DNA of 34,677 bases from Hyphomicrobiales bacterium (GTDB taxonomy: Bacteria > Pseudomonadota > Alphaproteobacteria > Rhizobiales > Beijerinckiaceae). Every line of letters starts with the position of its first letter. Within the stretch, counting starts at the first letter, position 1. Shown here piece after piece: positions 680-22,438 of the stretch. The stretch lies in contig JAQGJX010000189.1 of NCBI GenBank assembly GCA_028290405.1, forward strand, positions 1 to 34,677, given 5' to 3'. Made by a program: the position numbers and the translations under genes. The notes below the pieces were generated by a model, which ran no database searches, was not told the origin of the DNA, and worked only from the letters and a program-made list of their open reading frames with translations.

Positions 680-1639
680 TCAAATCTTCATTTGCGCGCG
701 CATGTCCGCGAGCATCCGCTCGGTCTTGGCGCCGCCGATCTTCTCGATGTCGTCCTGGTATTTCAGCAGCACGCCCAGCGTATCCTGCACGGTCTGCGGA
801 TCGAGCGCGACCACGTCGAGTTCATGCAGCGCGCTCGCCCAGTCCAGCGTTTCGGCGACGCCGGGCTGCTTGAACAGGTCCTGCTTGCGCAGGTACTGCA
901 CGAAGGCCACGATCTCCGCCGTGAGCCGCTTGGGGGCGCCGGGCGCGCGGGCCTGCACGATCTTCATCTCGCGCGCCGCGTCCGGGTATCCCACCCAGTG
1001 ATAGAGGCAGCGGCGCTTCAGCGCGTCGTGGACCTCGCGGGTGCGGTTGGACGTGATGACGACGATGGGCGGCTGCGCGGCCGTGACCGCGCCGAGCTCG
1101 GGAATCGTGATCTGGAAGTCCGACAGCACCTCGAGCAGGAACGCCTCGAACGCCTCGTCGGTGCGGTCGAGCTCGTCGATCAGCAGCACCGGCGGGCCCT
1201 CCGCGTGGGGCTCCAGCGCCTGCAGGAGCGGACGGCGCACCAGATAGCGCTCGGAGAACACGTCGTGCTCCAGCCGCTCGCGGTCCGTCTCGCCGGCGGC
1301 TTCCGCCAGCCGGATCGCCATCATCTGCGCGGCGTAGTTCCACTCGTAGACGGCGGACGAAACGTCGAGCCCCTCGTAGCATTGGAGGCGGATGAGCTTG
1401 CGGCCGAGCGTGCGCGACAGGACCTTGGCGATCTCCGTCTTGCCGACGCCCGCCTCGCCTTCCAGGAACAGCGGGCGGCCCATCTTCAGCGCCAGATAGA
1501 GCACCGTCGCGAGCCCGCGATCGGCCACGTAGTCCGCGCCGGTGAGCAGCGCGAGCGTGTCGTCGATAGAGGCCGGGATCTGCCCGGGCGAGCCGGATTT
1601 GGCGGAGGGCTTGGGAGGCACGGATGTTCCTTGCGTCAC
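680..1639 (-). CDS. coxD: MoxR-family AAA+ ATPase (CoxD-like)
   Basis: A 319-residue AAA+ ATPase with Walker A GEAGVGKT at residues 61-68 and Walker B VLLIDELDR at 151-159, followed by a sensor-1-like VVITSNRTREV segment and a RRC arginine-finger-type region. The length and the YLALKMGRPLFLEGEAG context fit the CoxD branch of the MoxR family. CoxD is known in Afipia (Oligotropha) carboxidovorans as an ATP-dependent chaperone that helps insert sulfur and copper into the Mo-Cu site of CO dehydrogenase, partnering a VWA protein (CoxE). Here coxM lies 78 bases upstream and coxE two genes downstream. MoxR proteins also serve unrelated systems, so the symbol depends on context. Confidence 0.88.
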   Translation of the reverse strand: MTQGTSVPPKPSAKSGSPGQIPASIDDTLALLTGADYVADRGLATVLYLALKMGRPLFLEGEAGVGKTEIAKVLSRTLGRKLIRLQCYEGLDVSSAVYEWNYAAQMMAIRLAEAAGETDRERLEHDVFSERYLVRRPLLQALEPHAEGPPVLLIDELDRTDEAFEAFLLEVLSDFQITIPELGAVTAAQPPIVVITSNRTREVHDALKRRCLYHWVGYPDAAREMKIVQARAPGAPKRLTAEIVAFVQYLRKQDLFKQPGVAETLDWASALHELDVVALDPQTVQDTLGVLLKYQDDIEKIGGAKTERMLADMRAQMKI

Positions 1640-1717: not shown

Positions 1718-2524
1718 TTACTTCCCCAGCGCCTTGCTCACCGCGCGGCGGGTCATCACTGTGATGAGGTGCGCGCGGTACTCGGCGTCGGCGTGGATGT
1801 CGCTGTTCAGCCCTTCCGCCGGGAACGGCGTCAGGCCGTCGAGGCCCTTCGGGTGGAACCTCGCCGTCAGGGCGGCCTCATACTTGGCGGCGCGGAACAC
1901 GCCGTTGGCCCCGGCGCCCGTCACGGCGACGCGCACCTCCTTGCCCTTCTTGGCGACGAACACGCCCACGATGGCGTAGCGCGAGGCCGGGTTGCGGAAT
2001 TTCTCGTAGGCCGCGCGGTTGGGCACGGGGAACGAGATCTTCGTGACCAGCTCGCCCTCTTCCAGCGCCGTCTCGAACAGGCCGGTGAAGAACTCGTCGG
2101 CGGGCAGCTTGCGCTTGTTGGTGATGATGGTGGCGCCCAGCGCCAGGCACGCGGAGGGATAGTCGGCGGCCGGATCGTTGTTGGCGACCGAGCCCCCGAT
2201 GGTGCCGCGATGGCGCACCGCCGGATCGCCGATCATGCCGGCGAGATCGGCCAGCGCCGGAATCTTCTCCTTCACGAGCGCCGAATTGGCCACATCGAAA
2301 TGGCGCGTCATGGCGCCGATGACGAGGTTGCGGCCCTTCATCTCGACGCCGCGCAGCTCCTCGACCGTCGTCAGGTCGATCAGGCCGGCCGGCGCCGCGA
2401 GGCGCTGCTTCATGGTGGGCAGCAGCGTCATGCCGCCGGCGAGAAACTTCGCGTCCTCGACCTTGCCGATGAGGTTGGCGGCTTTGCGCGCCGTATCGGG
2501 CCGGTGGTACGTGAATGCATACAT
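1718..2524 (-). CDS. coxM: Molybdenum hydroxylase FAD subunit (CoxM-like)
   Basis: A 268-residue medium subunit of the xanthine oxidase/CO dehydrogenase family. FAD-binding motifs are plain: AGGMTLLP at residues 29-36 and TIGGSVANNDPAAD at 108-121. This subunit passes electrons from the iron-sulfur protein to FAD and on to the respiratory chain. A GGGAG precedes the ATG by about 8 bases. coxS ends only 32 bases upstream, leaving no room for the large subunit that often sits between coxS and coxM. Because that subunit is missing, the substrate cannot be read from this window: CO and other aerobic Mo-hydroxylase substrates remain possible. Confidence 0.93.
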   Translation of the reverse strand: MYAFTYHRPDTARKAANLIGKVEDAKFLAGGMTLLPTMKQRLAAPAGLIDLTTVEELRGVEMKGRNLVIGAMTRHFDVANSALVKEKIPALADLAGMIGDPAVRHRGTIGGSVANNDPAADYPSACLALGATIITNKRKLPADEFFTGLFETALEEGELVTKISFPVPNRAAYEKFRNPASRYAIVGVFVAKKGKEVRVAVTGAGANGVFRAAKYEAALTARFHPKGLDGLTPFPAEGLNSDIHADAEYRAHLITVMTRRAVSKALGK

Positions 2525-2556
2525 CGTTCGTCTCCCGGAATTGCGTGCGCGAGGGC

Positions 2557-3051
2557 TTATTCAGCCGCGGCGGCGTGCGCTGTCGCGCCCATCTTCTGCG
2601 CGCCGTCGGCGATCGCCTTCACGATATTGTGGTAGCCCGTGCAGCGGCAGATGTTGCCTTCCAGCTCGTGGCGAATGGTGGCCTCGTCGAGGTCGGAACC
2701 CTTGCGGTTCACGATGTCCACGGCCGACATGATCATGCCCGGCGTGCAGAAGCCGCACTGCAACCCGTGGTTCTCCCGGAAGGCTTCCTGCATCGGGTGC
2801 AGCACGCCCTCGTGCGCCAGTCCCTCGATGGTGGTCACGTCGGCGCCGTCCAGCGACAGGGCGAGCGCCGTGCAGGACTTGATGGCCGCGCCGTTCACAT
2901 GCACCACGCAGCAGCCGCACTGGCTCGTGTCGCAGCCCACATGCGTGCCCGTGAGGCGCAGCTCTTCGCGCAGGAACTGCACCAGCAGCGTGCGGGGGTC
3001 GACGTCGCGGGACACGGCCTTGCTGTTCACCGTCATGGAAACCTTGGGCAT
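2557..3051 (-). CDS. coxS: Molybdenum hydroxylase [2Fe-2S] subunit (CoxS-like)
   Basis: A 164-residue small subunit with two [2Fe-2S] clusters. The plant-ferredoxin-type cluster uses C40, C45, C48 and C60 (motif CDTSQCGCC, with an extra C47). The C-terminal helical cluster uses C99, C102 (QCGFCTPG), C135 and C137 (CRCTGY). It relays electrons from the molybdenum centre to the FAD subunit. The length is normal for the family. A GGGAGG lies nine bases before the ATG. Transcription order is coxG-coxS-coxM, all on the minus strand with short gaps. Confidence 0.95.
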
Positions 3052-3153
3052 TTTCTTGAACCTCCCGAGGGTGTCTCTCCCTCACATGAGCGCCAATGTG
3101 TCGCCGCGCCGCGTTCCGGTCAAGCCGGGCGCGGCGGGCGAGGACGCGTGCGG

Positions 3154-3606
3154 TCAGCCCTTGGCGACCACTTCCACGAATTTGGAGAAGAACGAATCCG
3201 CGTTCTTCTTGGCTACGCCGTCGATGAGGCGCCCGCCGAGCTGGGCGATCTTGCCGCCCACGTTGGCCTCCACGTCATAGGAGAGGACCGTGCCGCCTTC
3301 GGGCGCGTCCGTCAGGGTCACGCGCGCGCCGCCCTTGGCGAAGCCCGCGACGCCGCCCTCGCCCTGGCCGCTGATGCGATAGCCGTTCGGGGGGTCGATC
3401 TCGGACAGTTCGACCGCGCCCTTGAACGTTGCGCCGACCGGCCCGACCTTGATTTTGGCCACGGCGCGGAAGGACGTGTCGGACGTCTTCTCCAGTTCCT
3501 GGCAACCGGGGATGCACTGCTTGAGCACCTCGGGATCGTTGAGCTTGTCCCATACCGTCTGGCGGTCGGCGGGGAGGGTGACCTCCCCCTTCATCGTCAT
3601 GGCCAT
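3154..3606 (-). CDS. coxG: CoxG-like SRPBCC-fold protein
   Basis: A 150-residue protein of the CO dehydrogenase subunit G family (SRPBCC/START-like fold). It begins [19 protein letters not shown] and contains the family pattern of a [12 protein letters not shown] segment near residues 28-37 and a [15 protein letters not shown] strand further on. In Oligotropha CoxG is implicated in anchoring CO dehydrogenase to the membrane. The ATG at 3606 has GAGG seven bases upstream, better than the in-frame ATGs at 3600 and 3594. It is the first gene of the minus-strand cluster, and a 179-base divergent region separates it from the hydrolase at 3786. Normally coxG lies at the far end of cox clusters, so this position is rearranged relative to the type operon. 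Confidence 0.88.
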
Positions 3607-3785: not shown

Positions 3786-5027
3786 ATGGCGAACATGAAA
3801 ATCAACGGCGCGACGCTCAACGTCGTGGTGGACGGCCCCGAGGACGCCCCGGCCCTCCTGATGTCGAATTCGCTGGGCTCCAACCTGTCCATGTGGGACC
3901 CGCAGATGGCGTCCCTGGCCCGGCGCTTCCGGGTGATCCGGTATGATTCGCGCGGCCATGGCGCCAGCGAAGTCACCCCCGGCCCCTATTCGGTTGAGCA
4001 ACTGGGCCGCGACGCGCTGGGCGTGCTCGACGCCGTGGGGGTGGAGAAGGCGCACTTCATCGGCCTGTCGCTCGGCGGGGTGGTGGGCATGTGGCTGCTG
4101 CTCAACGCGCCGGAGCGGATCGACCGCGCGGTGCTGTCCAACACCAGCGCCCATTTCGGCAATCCAGACAGCTGGAACGCCCGCATCCGCACCGCCATGG
4201 CCGAGGGGCTCGACGGACTCGCGGACGCCACCATGGACCGCTGGTTCACGGCCGATTTCCAGGAAGCCCATCCCGAAACCGTGGCGCGCATCGCCGACGC
4301 ATTCCGCGCCACCGCCCCGGAAGGCTTCTGCGCCGCCGCCGCCGCCATACGCGACTGCGACCTGCGCGAGGCTATCCGGTCCATCTCGAACCGCGTGCTG
4401 GTGATCGTCGGGACGCAGGACCCCTCCGCCACCCCCTCGGCGGGCGGCCTGATCGCCGAGCACATCCCCGGCGCCCGCCTCGTGGCGCTGGAAGCCGCGC
4501 ACCTGTCGAACACGCAGGCCGAGAACGAGTTCAACCGCGCGGTCGTGGCGTTCCTCACCGCGCCTGCGGCCCAGCCCAAGGCCGAGCGCAAGGCCGAGCC
4601 CGCGGCCCGCGTGAAAGCGGCGAAGAAGTCCGCCAAAAAAACGGCGAAGAAAGCCGCAAAGGCCGGGACGGCCAAGAAGGCCGCCGCCAAGAAGTCTGCG
4701 GCGAAGAAGGCTCCGGCCAAGAAGGGCGGCGCCAAAAAGTCCGTCGCCAAGAAAGCTGCGGCGAAAAAGACCGCGGCCAAGAAATCCGCTGGCAAGAAGG
4801 CGAGCGCCAGGAAGGTCGCCGGCAAGAAGACGGCCAAGTCGTCCTCAACCAGGACAGCAGCCAAGAAGACGGCGAAGAAGGCGGCCGTGAAGACGCCCGC
4901 CAGGAAGTCCGTCAAGAAGGCCGTCAAGCAGGCTGGGACGAAGACGGCCACGAAGATCGCCAAGAAGACGGCGAAGACCTCCGCCAAGAAATCCGCCCGG
5001 AAGGCGGCGAAGAAGTCCCGCCGCTAG
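3786..5027 (+). CDS. pcaD: 3-oxoadipate enol-lactonase-like alpha/beta hydrolase with histone-H1-like tail
   Basis: A 413-residue two-part protein. Residues 1-260 are an alpha/beta hydrolase most like PcaD, which hydrolyses 3-oxoadipate enol-lactone in the beta-ketoadipate pathway: an oxyanion segment near SNSLGSN (27-33), YDSRGHG (53-59), nucleophile elbow GLSLGG with Ser95, acid Asp212 (GTQDPSATP) and His239 (EAAHLSN). PcaD normally ends about here. Residues 263-413 are instead a low-complexity tail of AKK-type repeats, about 150 residues of Lys, Ala, Ser and Thr, like bacterial H1-like proteins, AlgP and the PhaF tail. The start has GAGGGG five bases upstream. No other pca genes are near. 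The catalytic domain is clear, the exact substrate less so, and the tail's role (DNA, polyphosphate or granule binding) is unknown. Confidence 0.85.
   Translation: MANMKINGATLNVVVDGPEDAPALLMSNSLGSNLSMWDPQMASLARRFRVIRYDSRGHGASEVTPGPYSVEQLGRDALGVLDAVGVEKAHFIGLSLGGVVGMWLLLNAPERIDRAVLSNTSAHFGNPDSWNARIRTAMAEGLDGLADATMDRWFTADFQEAHPETVARIADAFRATAPEGFCAAAAAIRDCDLREAIRSISNRVLVIVGTQDPSATPSAGGLIAEHIPGARLVALEAAHLSNTQAENEFNRAVVAFLTAPAAQPKAERKAEPAARVKAAKKSAKKTAKKAAKAGTAKKAAAKKSAAKKAPAKKGGAKKSVAKKAAAKKTAAKKSAGKKASARKVAGKKTAKSSSTRTAAKKTAKKAAVKTPARKSVKKAVKQAGTKTATKIAKKTAKTSAKKSARKAAKKSRR
4570..5024 (+). repeat. Degenerate tandem repeats encoding AKK-rich tail
   Basis: About 450 bases of imperfect tandem units built around GCCAAGAAG, coding for AKK, AAKK and SAKK motifs in the last ~150 residues of the hydrolase. 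The units vary in spacer residue and codon, so this is a coding low-complexity repeat. It is prone to length variation by slippage or recombination. Confidence 0.85.
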
Positions 5028-5054: not shown

Positions 5055-5076
5055 CCCGCGTGAACCCTCACGCGGG
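5055..5076. terminator. GC-rich hairpin between convergent genes, possible terminator
   Basis: A perfect 9-bp stem (CCCGCGTGA with TCACGCGGG) closed by an ACCC loop, lying 27 bases after the hydrolase stop and overlapping the last codons and stop of the converging TRAP permease gene. No T run follows on either strand, so it could slow RNA polymerase or protect 3' ends, but it is not a classical intrinsic terminator. Confidence 0.3.
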
Positions 5077-6999
5077 CGCGGCGGCGGTCGGCCTGCGCCG
5101 CAGCATGTAATCGGCCAGAAGCAGGCCCGAGGCCCCAAGAACGAGCGCGACGTCCAGCGCCGTGTTCTCCGGGACCCAGTAGACCAGCAGCAGCACGGCC
5201 AGCGCAGCGGCCGCATAAAGGGCGCGTCCGGCGGCCCTGAGCGGCGCGAACGAATAGCCCACCACAGCCATGCAGCCCAGGTAGATGCCCAGCCCCGTGC
5301 GCAGCACGTCCAGCAACACCGCCAGCCATGGCCCGTCCATCAGCAACGTCGGGCGCCCGACGAACAGGAACGGCAGCACGAAGGCGCTCCAGCCGAACGC
5401 CACCGACGCCCAGCCGGCGTTCCAGCCCGAGACGCGCGCGATGTTGGCCGCCGCGTAGGAGGCCAAGGCGACCGGGGGGGTGATCATCGACAGCATGCCG
5501 TAGTACATGACGAACATGTGCGCAGCCATCGGCTTCACGCCAAGCTGCACCAGCGCCGGCGCGATCAGCGTCGCGGTGAGCACGTAGACGCCCACCGTCG
5601 GCATGCCCATGCCGAGCACGAAACTCAGGATCGCGGTGAGCACCAGGAGCGCCAGCACGCTATCGCCGCTCAGCGTCACGAGTTGCAGCGTGAGGCCGAA
5701 GGCCAGGCCGGTGATGTTGAGCACGCCCACCACCAGCCCGGCGGCGGCGCTGATGAGGATGATGTCGAGCGACGAGCGGCCCGTGTCCAGCACGGCGCGC
5801 CAGAGTTCGCTCACCGTGCAGCGCGAGCCCCGGTAGGTGAACATGAAATTGAACGCCAGCAGCATCAGGGTGGCGTAGATGGCGGCCCGCTCGGCCTGCA
5901 TCTCGAGGAACAACAGGCCGACGATCAGGAAAGCGATGGGCAGAAGGAAGTGCCAGCCGTCGCGCAGCACCGACATGAACCGCAGGTCGTCGTCGGTCTT
6001 GACGGCGCCGATGTGCTGCTTGGCGGCTTCAAGGTCCACGCACATGAACAGCGTGCCGTAATAGAGCAGCGAGGGAATGGTGGCGGCGATCACCACCGCG
6101 CCGTAGCTCGTCTGCAGCAGTTCCGCCATGATGAAGGCAGCGGCGCCCATCACGGGCGGCATGAGCTGCCCGCCCGTGGAGCCCACCGCCTCGATGGCGG
6201 CTGCGCGCGTCGGCGAAAAGCCCGAGCGGATCATCAGCGGAATGGTGACGATGCCCACCGCCATCACGTTGCTCACCGCCGCGCCGGATATCATCCCGAA
6301 CAGGCCCGAGCCGACCACGGCGATCTTGGCCGCCCCGCCCCGGAACGCCCCCATGGCGGACATGGCGAGATCGGCGAAGAACTCCGAGCCACCGGTGCGC
6401 GACAGCACCTGCCCCATGATGGTGAACGGAATGACGATGATGACGCCGACGCCCAGCAGCGACGAGATGAGCCCGTTGATGTCGAGGCCCAGATAGACGA
6501 TGAGCCGCATCGTGCTGACGGGCCGCGTCTGGAAGTCGCCCGGCATGTGCGGGCCGATGAACACGTAGGCGATCATCACCAGCACGATGCCGACCAGCAC
6601 CGGCCCGGCCAGCCGGCGGGTCGCCTCCAGCACCAGCGCCAGCAACAACGCGCTGCCGAGGACGCCGTCCAGCGGCAGCATGGTGAGTTCCTGCGACAGG
6701 GTCGGGTAGCGCAGGGCGATGTAGCCGCACAGCCCGAAGGACAGCGCGGCGGCGATCCAGTCGGCCACGCGCACGCGGCCCCGGGCGCTTTCGTGCAGAT
6801 AGGCGATGACGAGCGCCAGGCCCAGCACGCCGGTCAGCATCTGCTCGGTGTAGAACGAGGTGTTCAGCACCCGGCGCGGCAGGTCCAGCACCCAGCCCGC
6901 CACGATGGCCACCAGCAATCCCTGGCAGACGTCCACGACCAGTGAACCCCAGCGGTCGGGGCTGGGGTTCAGGGTCTTTGCAAGCCCGGCGTCGGTCAT
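5068..6999 (-). CDS. TRAP transporter fused permease (small and large membrane domains)
   Basis: A 643-residue, highly hydrophobic protein with the length and pattern of TRAP permeases in which the small DctQ-like and large DctM-like domains are fused (4TM/12TM type). Recognisable DctM-type segments include GGSEFFADLAMSAMGAFRGG, the GAAVSNVMAVGIVTIPLM region and a long MGMPTVGVYVL membrane stretch. Fused TRAP permeases nearly always pair with TAXI-type binding proteins, and one is encoded 37 bases upstream. The system is a sodium- or proton-driven importer of a small organic anion in the inner membrane. The substrate cannot be predicted. A GAGGA lies eight bases before the ATG. Confidence 0.93.
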   Translation of the reverse strand: MTDAGLAKTLNPSPDRWGSLVVDVCQGLLVAIVAGWVLDLPRRVLNTSFYTEQMLTGVLGLALVIAYLHESARGRVRVADWIAAALSFGLCGYIALRYPTLSQELTMLPLDGVLGSALLLALVLEATRRLAGPVLVGIVLVMIAYVFIGPHMPGDFQTRPVSTMRLIVYLGLDINGLISSLLGVGVIIVIPFTIMGQVLSRTGGSEFFADLAMSAMGAFRGGAAKIAVVGSGLFGMISGAAVSNVMAVGIVTIPLMIRSGFSPTRAAAIEAVGSTGGQLMPPVMGAAAFIMAELLQTSYGAVVIAATIPSLLYYGTLFMCVDLEAAKQHIGAVKTDDDLRFMSVLRDGWHFLLPIAFLIVGLLFLEMQAERAAIYATLMLLAFNFMFTYRGSRCTVSELWRAVLDTGRSSLDIILISAAAGLVVGVLNITGLAFGLTLQLVTLSGDSVLALLVLTAILSFVLGMGMPTVGVYVLTATLIAPALVQLGVKPMAAHMFVMYYGMLSMITPPVALASYAAANIARVSGWNAGWASVAFGWSAFVLPFLFVGRPTLLMDGPWLAVLLDVLRTGLGIYLGCMAVVGYSFAPLRAAGRALYAAAALAVLLLVYWVPENTALDVALVLGASGLLLADYMLRRRPTAAAPA

Positions 7000-7036
7000 G
7001 TGTCGTCCTCGTCGCCGGCGGTCGGCTTGGGCTTGG

Positions 7037-8011
7037 TTACTGCTTGGGCTTGAGGCCCTTGCCTTCGAAATATTTCACCGCGCCCGCGTGGTAGGGAATG
7101 GCGCCGGCCTTGTAGTAATCGGCGACGTCGAATTCCGCCAGCCAGGGGGCGGTCGCCACCATGTCGGGCTTGTTCTTGGCCATCTCGTCCAGCACCTTGG
7201 CGACGACGTCGTCCTTCACGTGCGCGCCGGCCAGCAGCAGGTTGTCGAAGGTCAGCACCGTGGTCGGCTCGGTCACGCCCGCCAGGCCCGGCCGGGGCTT
7301 CACTTCAGTAAAGTAGATCGACGGCGCCACCTTGCGGGCCGCCTCCAGCGCGGCGGGCGCCGACGGCAGCCCCAGGAGGCGCACGCCGCCCACGGAGGCG
7401 TCGGCCTCGTTCACCTTGCCGGCGCCGAGCGCAAAATAGAACACGTCTGCGGCGCCGGAAATGAAATCGTCGGCCGAGCGGATGACGTTAGGCACCATGA
7501 CGGGCTTGATGTCCTTTGGCGTGAGCCCCGCGGCAGCAAGGCTCGCGATCGCCAGGTCGTCGTTGGTGCGCATGGCCGAGAAGCCCAGCGGGAACCGCTT
7601 GCCCTTCACGTCCGCCATGGTCTTCATGTCGCTGTCCTTGCGGGCGAAGAAGCCGACGCGCAGCGGCTGCACGGCGGCCACGACCCGCAACTTCTCCTGC
7701 TTGCCCGCGACAGCCTTGCCCGTATAGGCCTCGATGGCCTCGATGACGTTGGCGATGCCGAAATCCGCCTCGCCGTTGTTGATGAGCGGCAGCAGGGCGG
7801 ATTCGCCCGCGGTCGGCTGGATGCGGGTCTGCATTCCCGCCTTCTGCTGCATGACCTTGGCGATCGCCGCCCCGGTGGAGTTGTTGAGCGTGCCCGGCTG
7901 CATGGTCACGAAGCCGAAGGTCTGCGCGCTGGCCGGCGCAGCCAGCGCCAAGGCCACGAGGGCCGCGCAGGCGGGCGGCAGTCGCTTGGTCAGGAGGCGT
8001 GTCATGGTCAT
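7037..8011 (-). CDS. TAXI-family TRAP solute-binding protein
   Basis: A 324-residue periplasmic binding protein with a signal peptide (basic start, hydrophobic core, cleavage expected after PASAQ or just before it, near residues 27-29). The mature N terminus, FGFVTMQPGTLNNSTGAAIA, and the INNGEADFGIANV segment are typical TAXI family signatures. It captures the ligand for the fused TRAP permease downstream. The frame stays open to 8347, but a GGGGAG nine bases before the ATG at 8011 and the signal peptide fix the start there; a second ATG lies at 8005. The ligand is unknown: characterised TAXI proteins bind glutamate or other carboxylates. Confidence 0.9.
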   Translation of the reverse strand: MTMTRLLTKRLPPACAALVALALAAPASAQTFGFVTMQPGTLNNSTGAAIAKVMQQKAGMQTRIQPTAGESALLPLINNGEADFGIANVIEAIEAYTGKAVAGKQEKLRVVAAVQPLRVGFFARKDSDMKTMADVKGKRFPLGFSAMRTNDDLAIASLAAAGLTPKDIKPVMVPNVIRSADDFISGAADVFYFALGAGKVNEADASVGGVRLLGLPSAPAALEAARKVAPSIYFTEVKPRPGLAGVTEPTTVLTFDNLLLAGAHVKDDVVAKVLDEMAKNKPDMVATAPWLAEFDVADYYKAGAIPYHAGAVKYFEGKGLKPKQ

Positions 8012-8147
8012 TGGTGCGTTCTCCCCGTTCGGCTTCAGATCGCCGTGTCTCGTATGCGTCGATGGCGCAGGCTCGCACGCCGCAACGCGCGCGCCAACGT
8101 CCGCGTGGACGCGATGAACGTCTCTTATCAAGCCTCGCCTGAGCTTT

Positions 8148-8615
8148 CTAGAACTCGCGGCGCATGCGCGCGTCCATCGACAGCGCGCCGCCCCCGCCCA
8201 TCGCGACCCCCAGGCACATGAGCGCCCAGAAAACCGCGAATTCCGCCCCCCGACCCGTCCAGAACCAGCCGAACGGCGCCTGTATGTAGGCCGCGACCGC
8301 CAGCAACACGAAGCACGCGACCGCCGCCGGGCGGGTGAACAGGCCAAGGACGATCAGCAACCCGCCGACCAATTCGACCGCTCCCGTGGTGATCATCCAG
8401 AAATAACCCGGGTTGAACCCCAGTTTGCCGAAGAGCGCGGCGATCTGCTCGGGATTGCCGCCGAACCAGCCGAAGAGTTTCTGGGCTCCGTGGGGCGCCA
8501 GGAACAGTCCGGTGACGATGCGCATCAATGGATACGCGAGCGGCTCAGTGGAAGCGTAGACGCTTGAGACCTGAGGAAAATAATGACGGCTGGGCCGGCT
8601 CTCGATGACGGACAT
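8148..8615 (-). CDS. DoxX-family membrane protein
   Basis: A 155-residue protein with about four membrane segments. The DoxX-family pattern is visible: RIVTGLFLAPHGAQKLFGWFGG (second half of the first membrane helix and following loop), then GxxELVGGLLIVLGLFTRPAA and a final helix. DoxX-type proteins are found with quinone- or thiol-linked redox systems, but their roles are mostly undefined. The ATG at 8615 has GGGAGG seven bases upstream. It reads in the same direction as the TAXI-TRAP genes but is 136 bases away, so co-transcription is uncertain. Confidence 0.88.
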   Translation of the reverse strand: MSVIESRPSRHYFPQVSSVYASTEPLAYPLMRIVTGLFLAPHGAQKLFGWFGGNPEQIAALFGKLGFNPGYFWMITTGAVELVGGLLIVLGLFTRPAAVACFVLLAVAAYIQAPFGWFWTGRGAEFAVFWALMCLGVAMGGGGALSMDARMRREF

Positions 8616-8867: not shown

Positions 8868-9791
8868 ATGGAGAACTTCGTCCAGCAGATCATCAACGGG
8901 CTGACCCTGGGCTCCATCTACGGCCTCATCGCCATCGGCTACACCATGGTGTTCGGCATCATCGGCATGGTGAACTTCGCCCACGGCGACGTCTTCATGG
9001 TGTCGACCTTCATCGCCCTCATCCTCTTCCTCGCGCTGACGCAATTGCTCGGCCTGCCGTCCATCTACCTGGCGCTGTTCCTCGTGCTGGTCGCCGCCAT
9101 GGTCCTCACCTCACTGTGGAGCTGGGCCATCGAGCGCGTCGCCTACCGGCCCCTGCGGGGCTCCTTCCGCCTTGCGCCGCTCATCTCGGCCATCGGCATG
9201 TCGATCTTCCTCATGAACTTCGTGCAGGTGACGCAGGGACCCCGCAACAAGCCGCTGCCGCCCATGTTCAACGATGTGATCCAGCTCTCGGGCCTGCCGG
9301 GCGCTGCCAATGGAATCACGCTGGCGTGGAAGCAGATTCTCATCATGGCGGTCACCGCCGTCCTGCTCTGCGTGTTCTGGTTCGTGGTGCAGAAGACGGC
9401 GCTCGGCCGGGCGCAGCGCGCGGTGGAGCAGGACCGGCGCATGGCGGCGCTGCTGGGGGTCGACGTCAACCGCACCGTCTCGCTCACCTTCGTCATCGGC
9501 GCAGCGCTAGCGGCCGTCGCCGGCACGCTCTACCTCGTGCAGTACGGCGTCGTGCGCTTCGACGACGGTTTCATTCCCGGCGTGAAGGCCTTCACGGCGG
9601 CGGTGCTGGGCGGCATCGGCTCCATTCCCGGCGCCGTTCTGGGCGGGTTGCTCATCGGCCTCATCGAGGTGCTGTGGTCGGCCTATGTGTCGAGCGACTA
9701 CAAGAACGTCGCGGCCTTCTCCGTCCTCATCGTGGTGCTGATCTTCATGCCCTCCGGCCTGCTGGGCCGTCCGGAAGTCGAGAAGGTCTGA
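8868..9791 (+). CDS. livH: Branched-chain amino acid ABC permease LivH
   Basis: A 307-residue inner-membrane permease opening with the LivH hallmark of a QQIINGLTLGSIYGLIAIGY segment at residues 4-23, followed by the MVFGIIGMVNFAHGD motif. The family's EAA-like loop appears as VEQDRRMAALLGVD around residues 185-198. With LivM it forms the channel of a HAAT-type importer for branched-chain or related amino acids and amides. An AGGAG lies eleven bases before the ATG, a little far. livM follows after four bases. It is the first gene of a six-gene plus-strand operon. Confidence 0.95.
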   Translation: MENFVQQIINGLTLGSIYGLIAIGYTMVFGIIGMVNFAHGDVFMVSTFIALILFLALTQLLGLPSIYLALFLVLVAAMVLTSLWSWAIERVAYRPLRGSFRLAPLISAIGMSIFLMNFVQVTQGPRNKPLPPMFNDVIQLSGLPGAANGITLAWKQILIMAVTAVLLCVFWFVVQKTALGRAQRAVEQDRRMAALLGVDVNRTVSLTFVIGAALAAVAGTLYLVQYGVVRFDDGFIPGVKAFTAAVLGGIGSIPGAVLGGLLIGLIEVLWSAYVSSDYKNVAAFSVLIVVLIFMPSGLLGRPEVEKV

Positions 9792-9795
9792 CGCG

Positions 9796-11306
<1,511 letters not shown>

Positions 11307-11310
<4 letters not shown>

Positions 11311-21130: not shown

Positions 21131-22438
21131 ATGATCCCCCGTTATTCCCGCCCCGAGATGGTGAAGATCTGGGACCCGCAGACGCGCTTCCGGATCTGGT
21201 TCGAGATCGAGGCCCACGCGTGCGACGCGCTGGCGGAGATCGGCGTCATCCCGAAGGAGAGCGCGAAGGCGATCTGGGAGCGGGCCGGGAACGTCACGTT
21301 CGACGTGGACCGCATCGACGAGATCGAGCGCGTGACCAAGCACGACGTCATCGCGTTCCTCACGCATCTCGCCGAATTCATCGGCGAGGATTCGCGCTTC
21401 GTGCATCAGGGCATGACGTCCTCGGACGTGCTCGACACGTGCCTGGCCGTGCAGATGAAGCGCGCCGCCGACATTCTCATCGCCGACGTCGACGCCCTGC
21501 TGGCGGCGCTGAAGACGCGCGCGTTCGAACACAAGATGACGCCCTGCATCGGCCGCTCGCATGGCATCCATGCCGAGCCGGTCACGTTCGGGCTGAAGAT
21601 GGCCCAGGCCCATGCGGAGTTCTCCCGCTGCCGCCAGCGGCTCGTGAACGCCCGCGAGGAGATCGCCACGTGCGCCATTTCAGGCGCCGTCGGCACGTTC
21701 GCCAACATCGATCCGCGCGTGGAGGAGCATGTGGCGGAGAAGATGGGCCTGCAGGCGGAGCCCGTCTCGACGCAGGTCATTCCCCGCGACCGGCACGCCA
21801 TGTTCTTCGCCACGCTGGGCGTCGTCGCGTCCAGCGTCGAGCGCCTCGCGACCGAGATCCGCCATCTGCAGCGCACCGAAGTGCTGGAGGCGGAGGAGTT
21901 CTTCTCGGCGGGCCAGAAGGGCTCCTCGGCCATGCCGCACAAGCGCAATCCCGTGCTGACGGAAAACCTCACCGGCCTCGCGCGCCTCGTGCGCGGCATG
22001 GCGCTGCCGGCCATGGAGAACGTGGCGCTGTGGCACGAGCGCGACATCTCCCATTCCAGCGTCGAGCGCATGATCGGCCCGGACGCGACGGTGACGCTGG
22101 ACTTCGCGCTGGCGCGCCTCACAGGCGTGATCGAAAAGCTGATCGTCTACCCCGAGAACATGCAGAAGAACCTCGACCGCTTGGGCGGCCTCGTGCACTC
22201 CCAGCGCGTGCTGCTCGCCCTGACGCAAAAGGGCGTGTCGCGCGAGGACGCCTACGCGTTCGTGCAGCGCAACGCCATGCCGGTGTGGCGCGGCGAGGGC
22301 GATTTCCTCACCCTGCTGAAAGCCGACAAGGACGTCTCCGCGAAGCTCTCGGACGCGGAGCTCGAAGAGCTCTTCGACCTCGGCTACCACCTGAAGCAGG
22401 TGGACACGATCTTCAGGCGTGTGTTCGGAACGGCCTGA
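21131..22438 (+). CDS. purB: Adenylosuccinate lyase
   Basis: A 435-residue enzyme of the fumarase/aspartase superfamily that cleaves SAICAR to AICAR and adenylosuccinate to AMP in purine synthesis. It begins MIPRYSRPEMVKIWDPQTRF, as other PurB proteins do. The TSSDVLDT segment lies near residue 97, the IGRSHGIHAEP segment with the catalytic His near residue 140, and the superfamily signature GSSAMPHKRNP near 262-272 with the mobile-loop serine. The length is standard. A GGAG lies eight bases before the ATG. The gene ends 20 bases from the converging orphan gene at 22459. Confidence 0.97.
   Translation: MIPRYSRPEMVKIWDPQTRFRIWFEIEAHACDALAEIGVIPKESAKAIWERAGNVTFDVDRIDEIERVTKHDVIAFLTHLAEFIGEDSRFVHQGMTSSDVLDTCLAVQMKRAADILIADVDALLAALKTRAFEHKMTPCIGRSHGIHAEPVTFGLKMAQAHAEFSRCRQRLVNAREEIATCAISGAVGTFANIDPRVEEHVAEKMGLQAEPVSTQVIPRDRHAMFFATLGVVASSVERLATEIRHLQRTEVLEAEEFFSAGQKGSSAMPHKRNPVLTENLTGLARLVRGMALPAMENVALWHERDISHSSVERMIGPDATVTLDFALARLTGVIEKLIVYPENMQKNLDRLGGLVHSQRVLLALTQKGVSREDAYAFVQRNAMPVWRGEGDFLTLLKADKDVSAKLSDAELEELFDLGYHLKQVDTIFRRVFGTA

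Follow-up and report, generated by a model that had tools for sequence, protein, structure and literature searches.

A lysine/alanine-rich polycationic tail on a PcaD-type hydrolase in one clade of Hyphomicrobiales

Why should a metabolic hydrolase end in a tail like those of bacterial histone H1-like proteins? The question is raised by an open reading frame (ORF) of a Hyphomicrobiales bacterium, located on contig JAQGJX010000189.1 (the window, meaning the whole stretch of 34,677 nucleotides that was analysed), in which the first-pass annotation had recognised a PcaD-like enzyme followed by AKK repeats. Enzymes of the PcaD kind take part in degrading aromatic compounds of plant origin. The two parts of the protein, the spread of the tail among relatives, the pathway genes around it and the other proteins with similar tails are considered in turn below.

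The hydrolase domain and its tail

The gene forms one uninterrupted frame from an ATG at 3786 to a stop codon at 5025-5027 and encodes 413 aa. Its features are as follows:

3786..5027, forward strand: complete ORF in an intact reading frame, coding for a PcaD-type hydrolase of 413 aa that ends in a K/A-rich tail
3786..4565, forward strand: PcaD-family catalytic domain (aa 1-260) with an alpha/beta hydrolase fold (from TIGR02427, pLDDT and 2xua)
4068..4070, forward strand: codon of Ser95, the nucleophile, in GLSLGG, invariant in 30/30 aligned sequences
4419..4421, forward strand: codon of Asp212, invariant in 30/30
4500..4502, forward strand: codon of His239, invariant in 30/30
4560..5027, forward strand: tail, aa 259-413 plus stop, predicted to be disordered, 33% Lys, 32% Ala, net charge +57

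That the N-terminal part is a complete PcaD-like hydrolase with the triad Ser95-Asp212-His239, as first proposed, is borne out by family model, alignment and fold. The protocat_pcaD model TIGR02427 matches residues 11-258 with 293.3 bits, over its curated cut-off of 255.85, and for the ORF Pfam returned families of alpha/beta hydrolases and, below threshold, Ndr, and nothing else. Besides the triad, R133 is likewise invariant in the 30 aligned sequences. The nearest solved structures by sequence are 2xua, the enol-lactonase of Burkholderia xenovorans LB400, and 3om8. In an AlphaFold2 model built from 23 aligned orthologues, the 10-residue means of pLDDT are 89-98 up to residue 260, and Foldseek placed 2xua at the top, with an rmsd of 0.8 A and a TM-score by target of 0.97. 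A second PcaD-family match in the same genome (C83) is weaker, with 218.3 bits, and lies below the cut-off.

The tail comprises 155 residues, including 51 Lys, 49 Ala and two acidic residues, and on its own matched no Pfam or NCBIfam family. In the model its pLDDT blocks are at 43-62 without secondary structure, indicating predicted disorder. A long, Lys/Ala-rich, acid-poor and disordered terminal region is what characterises H1-like K/A tails, and the likeness to bacterial H1-like proteins that had been claimed for it is genuine. At the DNA level, Tandem Repeats Finder detected units of 12, 15 and 45 bases with 67-71% match, as well as a short 12-base row at 4568-4601 with 86% match. Lysine is encoded by AAG 42 times and by AAA nine times, and all four alanine codons are used.

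Spread and variation of the tail

Orthologues were searched for in 61 genomes, consisting of the window's own genome, 36 labelled as the same genus and 24 labelled as the same order. Among the own genome and the 36 of the same genus, 26 contain a close orthologue (at least 43% identity); the other 11 gave either no match at 1e-30 (nine) or a distant one at 34-36% (two). The K/A tail was found in 23 of these 26, with identities of 43-67% and with one of them (L026) truncated where its contig ends, and the three tail-less ones (G025, G002, G014) end directly after the domain. All four same-order orthologues that were read (L034-L037) are tail-less. Among the best 80 of 595 related stretches in a collection of 84,980 species genomes, 12 bear a K/A tail (one of them cut short) and the other 68 stop no more than 8 residues past the domain, in agreement with the first impression that such a tail is unusual for a metabolic hydrolase. 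By record title, these 12 are assigned to Rhizobiales/Hyphomicrobiales, Roseiarcaceae, Beijerinckiaceae, one 'Proteobacteria' MAG and one Rhizobium sp. MAG; five are additional genomes, bringing the tailed genomes to at least 28 altogether.

On a tree of 57 rows (28 tailed), computed without the tail residues, the tail label requires two changes, namely one gain (node support 97/96) and one loss (node 100/98), and the rows of Chelatococcus, Variibacter, Rhodoplanes and Pseudomonas fall outside the gain node. The tail is a real and old trait of one Hyphomicrobiales clade, and not the one-off fusion that the earlier reading implied. Because the subclade that lost it has kept the adjacent PcaC-like gene, the tail is dispensable there. 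A frameshift or assembly fusion is ruled out by the identical architecture in separate genomes, and the sequencing or assembly error that the first-pass annotation had named as a possible refutation can be excluded in practice, since 23 of the 26 orthologues from separate genomes are tailed and the AKKxAKK pattern is rare in the window's genome. It had also been allowed that the tail might prove common and already characterised. Common it is, within one clade, but the open-access literature, among the matches listed and at the level of titles and abstract starts, describes no tailed enol-lactonase and no K/A tail on protocatechuate enzymes.

The 22 complete tails (the 23 tailed orthologues minus L026) vary in length from 90 to 227 residues, with a median of 126.5. 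They contain 22-45% Lys, 0-8 acidic residues and, summed over F, W, Y, C, M, I, L and H, 0-5 residues of these kinds, and their net charge ranges from +35 to +62; with one another they align poorly. Judged from these sequences, the tail drifts in sequence while its charge persists, and the pattern looks like selection on composition. In one Beijerinckiaceae MAG (L095) the PcaD tail differs from the others in having an acidic stretch ahead of its basic part; 21 of the tail's 186 residues are acidic. The idea that the domain is more acidic in order to balance the tail found no support: the median net charge is -2.0 for 28 tailed domains versus -6.5 for 28 tail-less ones, in a comparison whose tail-less set includes one sequence twice (L034, L172) and from which L169 is omitted.

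A tail of this kind could also be a near-neutral passenger, that is, a K/A codon repeat that arose by slippage at the 3' end of pcaD or as a copy from TopA or an H1-like gene and is tolerated without having any target. The repeats in its DNA, its variable length, its loss in one subclade and the patchiness of the LigB and UbiD tails described below would all be expected of such a passenger. Retention in 23 of 26 close orthologues that are 43-67% identical, within a narrow range of charge, would not, nor would the persistence of the K/A composition in repeat units that are merely 67-71% alike in DNA, and we regard this explanation as unlikely.

Pathway genes and neighbourhood

The statement that no pca genes lie nearby stands for the window but fails for most tailed relatives. 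Within the window, tblastn at E<=1e-5 detected no PcaC, and the only PcaB-family match (21146-22135) has 185.6 bits against a cut-off of 355.75. A PcaC-like gene lies directly downstream in 15 of the 23 tailed genomes; the eight without it include the window's own genome and one cut by a contig end. It is also adjacent to the tail-less close orthologues (3/3). These PcaC-like neighbours in tailed genomes score 134.7-154.9 bits, all below the PcaC cut-off of 155.7. Counted by distinct tailed loci, the gene is present at 15 of the 26 examined, and at 10 of those 15 it overlaps the hydrolase gene by one base of stop and start. The site of the relatives' PcaC-like gene is occupied in the window by a TRAP pair (5068-8347, reverse strand), which suggests that pcaC may have been lost here through an insertion or replacement.

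The adjacency and the overlap are what would be expected if the polycation captured anionic lactone intermediates and guided them from PcaC to PcaD, in loose replacement of the covalent joining of PcaD and PcaC in other bacteria, a known type of fusion (NF051488). However, eight tailed genomes have no adjacent PcaC and three tail-less orthologues have one, and channelling of this sort appears quite improbable to us.

The remainder of the beta-ketoadipate pathway, a supporting feature outside the PcaD model, was not found in the window's own genome (99.65% complete). PcaC and CatC were not detected there, no PcaB match passes the cut-off, and the two intradiol-dioxygenase matches are single, leaving no PcaGH pair. 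PcaB-family matches above 250 bits occur in 12 of the 23 tailed genomes, and over cut-off only in G031. Adjacent PcaGH-like pairs are present in 5 of the 23 tailed genomes and in 3/3 tail-less ones. CatC was found in none of the 23 own or same-genus genomes searched (15 of them tailed) and in 2 of the 14 same-order genomes searched.

Because these partners were not found in its genome, another substrate for the enzyme is conceivable here. It might be an orphan hydrolase whose substrate is some lactone or ester different from 3-oxoadipate enol-lactone, the role of the tail being a separate matter, and the low number of tailed genomes with a PcaGH-like pair would agree with this. On the other hand, the PcaD model is matched over its cut-off, the triad and R133 are invariant, 2xua is closest by both sequence and fold, and two plasmid homologues (52% and 47% identical) lie in annotated pca operons; a third plasmid record carried no annotation. 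The plasmid tblastn was run with the low-complexity filter on, and its coverage carries no weight about tails. We consider the orphan reading possible, if on the doubtful side. The enzyme would most probably act on 3-oxoadipate enol-lactone or a closely similar carboxylated lactone, with less certainty in this genome than elsewhere.

The hydrolase gene is transcribed away from a cox-like molybdenum-hydroxylase cluster, and liv-type transporter genes are located downstream of it. The genes around it are:

680..1639, reverse strand: AAA ATPase, MadB/CoxD-like (PF07728; MadB model 273.9 bits, below its cut-off of 475)
1718..2524, reverse strand: CoxM-like FAD subunit (PF00941)
2557..3051, reverse strand: CoxS-like [2Fe-2S] subunit (PF01799)
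3154..3606, reverse strand: CoxG-like gene, the divergent neighbour (PF06240, 132.5 bits)
5068..6999, reverse strand: fused TRAP transporter permease (TIGR02123, 518 bits)
7037..8347, reverse strand: TAXI-family TRAP solute-binding subunit (TIGR02122, 133 bits; frame limits, start provisional)
8868-9791, forward strand: LivH-like permease (PF02653)
9796-11310, forward strand: LivM-like permease (PF02653)

CoxG-like, LivH-like and LivM-like genes are each present in 27 of the 31 compared loci, four of which repeat a genome, and in some of them the liv genes have the opposite orientation or lie several kb away. A CoxL-like large-subunit gene occurs in 22 of the 31; no such gene (~792 aa) lies between the CoxS-like and CoxM-like genes in the window (1718-3606, reverse strand) or in the relatives L055 and L056. 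In several genomes the same block, on the same contig, also contains a PurB-like gene, read from PcaB-family matches of 170-190 bits, and this weakens the neighbourhood as functional evidence. The block may be plain chromosomal synteny, and PcaC adjacency alone was used as evidence from the neighbourhood.

Other lysine-rich tails and the role of the tail

In the whole genome of the window, the strict AKKxAKK pattern occurs 15 times in the DNA and at three places only; the reversed control pattern gave 0. One place is the hydrolase gene, and the other two encode the C-terminal end of a TopA-like protein and a free H1-like protein of 100 aa. A relaxed pattern added two places, one with a frame-breaking length and one in a frame of 3% Lys without a tail. 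The strict pattern gave 0 matches in the tail-less genomes G002, G014 and G025, and also 0 in four tailed genomes (G010, G017, G018, G026), hence it measures repeat spacing. The suggestion that tail-less genomes are devoid of AKK proteins was ruled out by the relaxed pattern, by which G002 and G025 have a tailed TopA and H1-like proteins, and G002 additionally a LigD-like AKK-tailed protein.

A sample of 40 AKK places other than the PcaD gene was read in the genomes sampled and classed by eye: 25 of 40 look DNA-binding by name (8 TopA-like, 15 free H1-like, 1 Ku-like and 1 LigD-like), 12 are not obviously DNA-binding and 3 are apparent chance frames. The 12 comprise two LigB, one UbiD, two TfoX-like, a pyrophosphatase-like and a carboxypeptidase-like protein and several places with an N-terminal position; among the identities assigned to AKK places, only those of LigB and UbiD are backed by Pfam and NCBIfam matches. 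The LigB protein, a class III extradiol dioxygenase, bears a K/A-rich C-terminal tail at L203, L204 and L205 of the closely related genomes G022, G024 and G031. As a clade-wide companion of the tailed PcaD it was ruled out, with a tail in only 3 of 28 readable loci (30 fetched, 2 cut by contig ends). A further LigB locus, L211, has a short KK-containing end of 28 aa, and the LigB of the window's own genome (L213) is without a tail. A UbiD-family decarboxylase of G003 (L191:403-2043, forward strand) has a short AKK tail at its end. The free H1-like proteins at L235, L187 and L188 (G022, G024 and G031) are very short, at ~41 aa.

Tethering to a polyanion, as first proposed, is still the most plausible role of the tail. 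Its composition and its company of mainly DNA-binding AKK proteins make the nucleoid the likeliest electrostatic anchor, with polyphosphate as the next candidate. The ancestor of one Hyphomicrobiales clade would have acquired, at the C-terminus of its PcaD-lineage alpha/beta hydrolase, a tail that is intrinsically disordered and polycationic, and it is the charge of this tail, rather than its sequence, that would have been kept. The tail would bind polyanions without sequence specificity, nucleoid DNA first and polyphosphate or RNA second, and would thereby hold the enzyme at the nucleoid rather than let it diffuse freely, while the folded domain would retain lactone-hydrolase chemistry. Taken as a whole, we would put the case for this reading at evenly balanced. 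We are aware of no reason why a catabolic enzyme should reside on DNA, which counts against it, as do the 12 of 40 AKK places that are not obviously DNA-binding and the 3 apparent chance frames, the fact that one subclade has lost the tail, the scores of the PcaC-like neighbours below the PcaC cut-off and the absence of any visible enol-lactone source from the window's own genome. K-rich low-complexity tails of histone-like proteins, topoisomerases and Ku have been linked to non-specific DNA binding (PMC6821194), and lysine repeats of TopA occur also in Caulobacter and Bordetella (PMC7398561).

The tail might instead attach the hydrolase to granules of polyphosphate (or PHA), as for AlgP and PhaF. 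Its size and composition are similar to those of the AlgP tail, and one study reports that AlgP associates with polyphosphate granules and needs its repeat tail for their positioning, and also that fragments of the repeat region bind DNA (PMC9239181). Pfam returned no phasin or other granule-binding domain, and the AKK proteins of these genomes are, by look, mainly DNA-binding, both of which stand against a granule tether; we hold it to be distinctly unlikely. A long shot is that PcaD, LigB and UbiD separately gained H1-like tails and share a polyanionic scaffold as a nucleoid-templated catabolic cluster, in which the nucleoid or polyphosphate would keep labile ring-cleavage intermediates close. 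The tails in question are clade-wide in PcaD and are found in three genomes for the LigB extradiol dioxygenase and in one for the UbiD-family decarboxylase.

If the tail does anchor the enzyme to DNA or polyphosphate, it would be a natural and easily removed case of a generic electrostatic tag that places a soluble metabolic enzyme, and would make it possible to examine whether metabolism is organised in part by the nucleoid. The tailed clade with its tail-less sister group (G025, G002, G014) permits a direct comparison. Should the cluster reading hold, bacterial chromatin would be a platform for a catabolic pathway. There is a warning as well, in that a K/A tail by itself is no proof that a protein acts on DNA.

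Compared with known systems, the ORF shares with PcaD (TIGR02427; 2xua) the fold, the triad, the domain length and an HMM score over cut-off, whereas it adds the 155-residue K/A tail and lies in a genome without a pca operon. Bifunctional PcaDC and PcaCD fusions (NF051488, NF051487) likewise consist of PcaD plus a C-terminal or N-terminal addition. Here, however, the addition is the tail, and PcaC, where present in relatives, is a separate gene; NF051488 gave 263.2 bits against a cut-off of 390 and covered only positions 2-255 of its 375, and NF051487 gave 201.3 against 430. AlgP of Pseudomonas aeruginosa and PhaF also possess a long, disordered, Lys/Ala-rich C-terminal repeat region (PMC9239181 for AlgP). 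The N-terminal part of the ORF is an enzyme of the alpha/beta hydrolase type instead of the helical domain that precedes the KPAA repeats in AlgP or the phasin domain of PhaF, for which Pfam gave no match, and its own repeats are of the AKK type. The lysine-repeat tails of bacterial TopA, HU/HupB and Ku have the same composition and C-terminal position (PMC7398561; PMC6821194). The TopA of the window's own genome has one too. Those are DNA-acting proteins, whereas the tailed ORF is a metabolic hydrolase. Both of its parts are of known kinds; their combination and its clade-wide retention appear new against the open-access literature matches listed.
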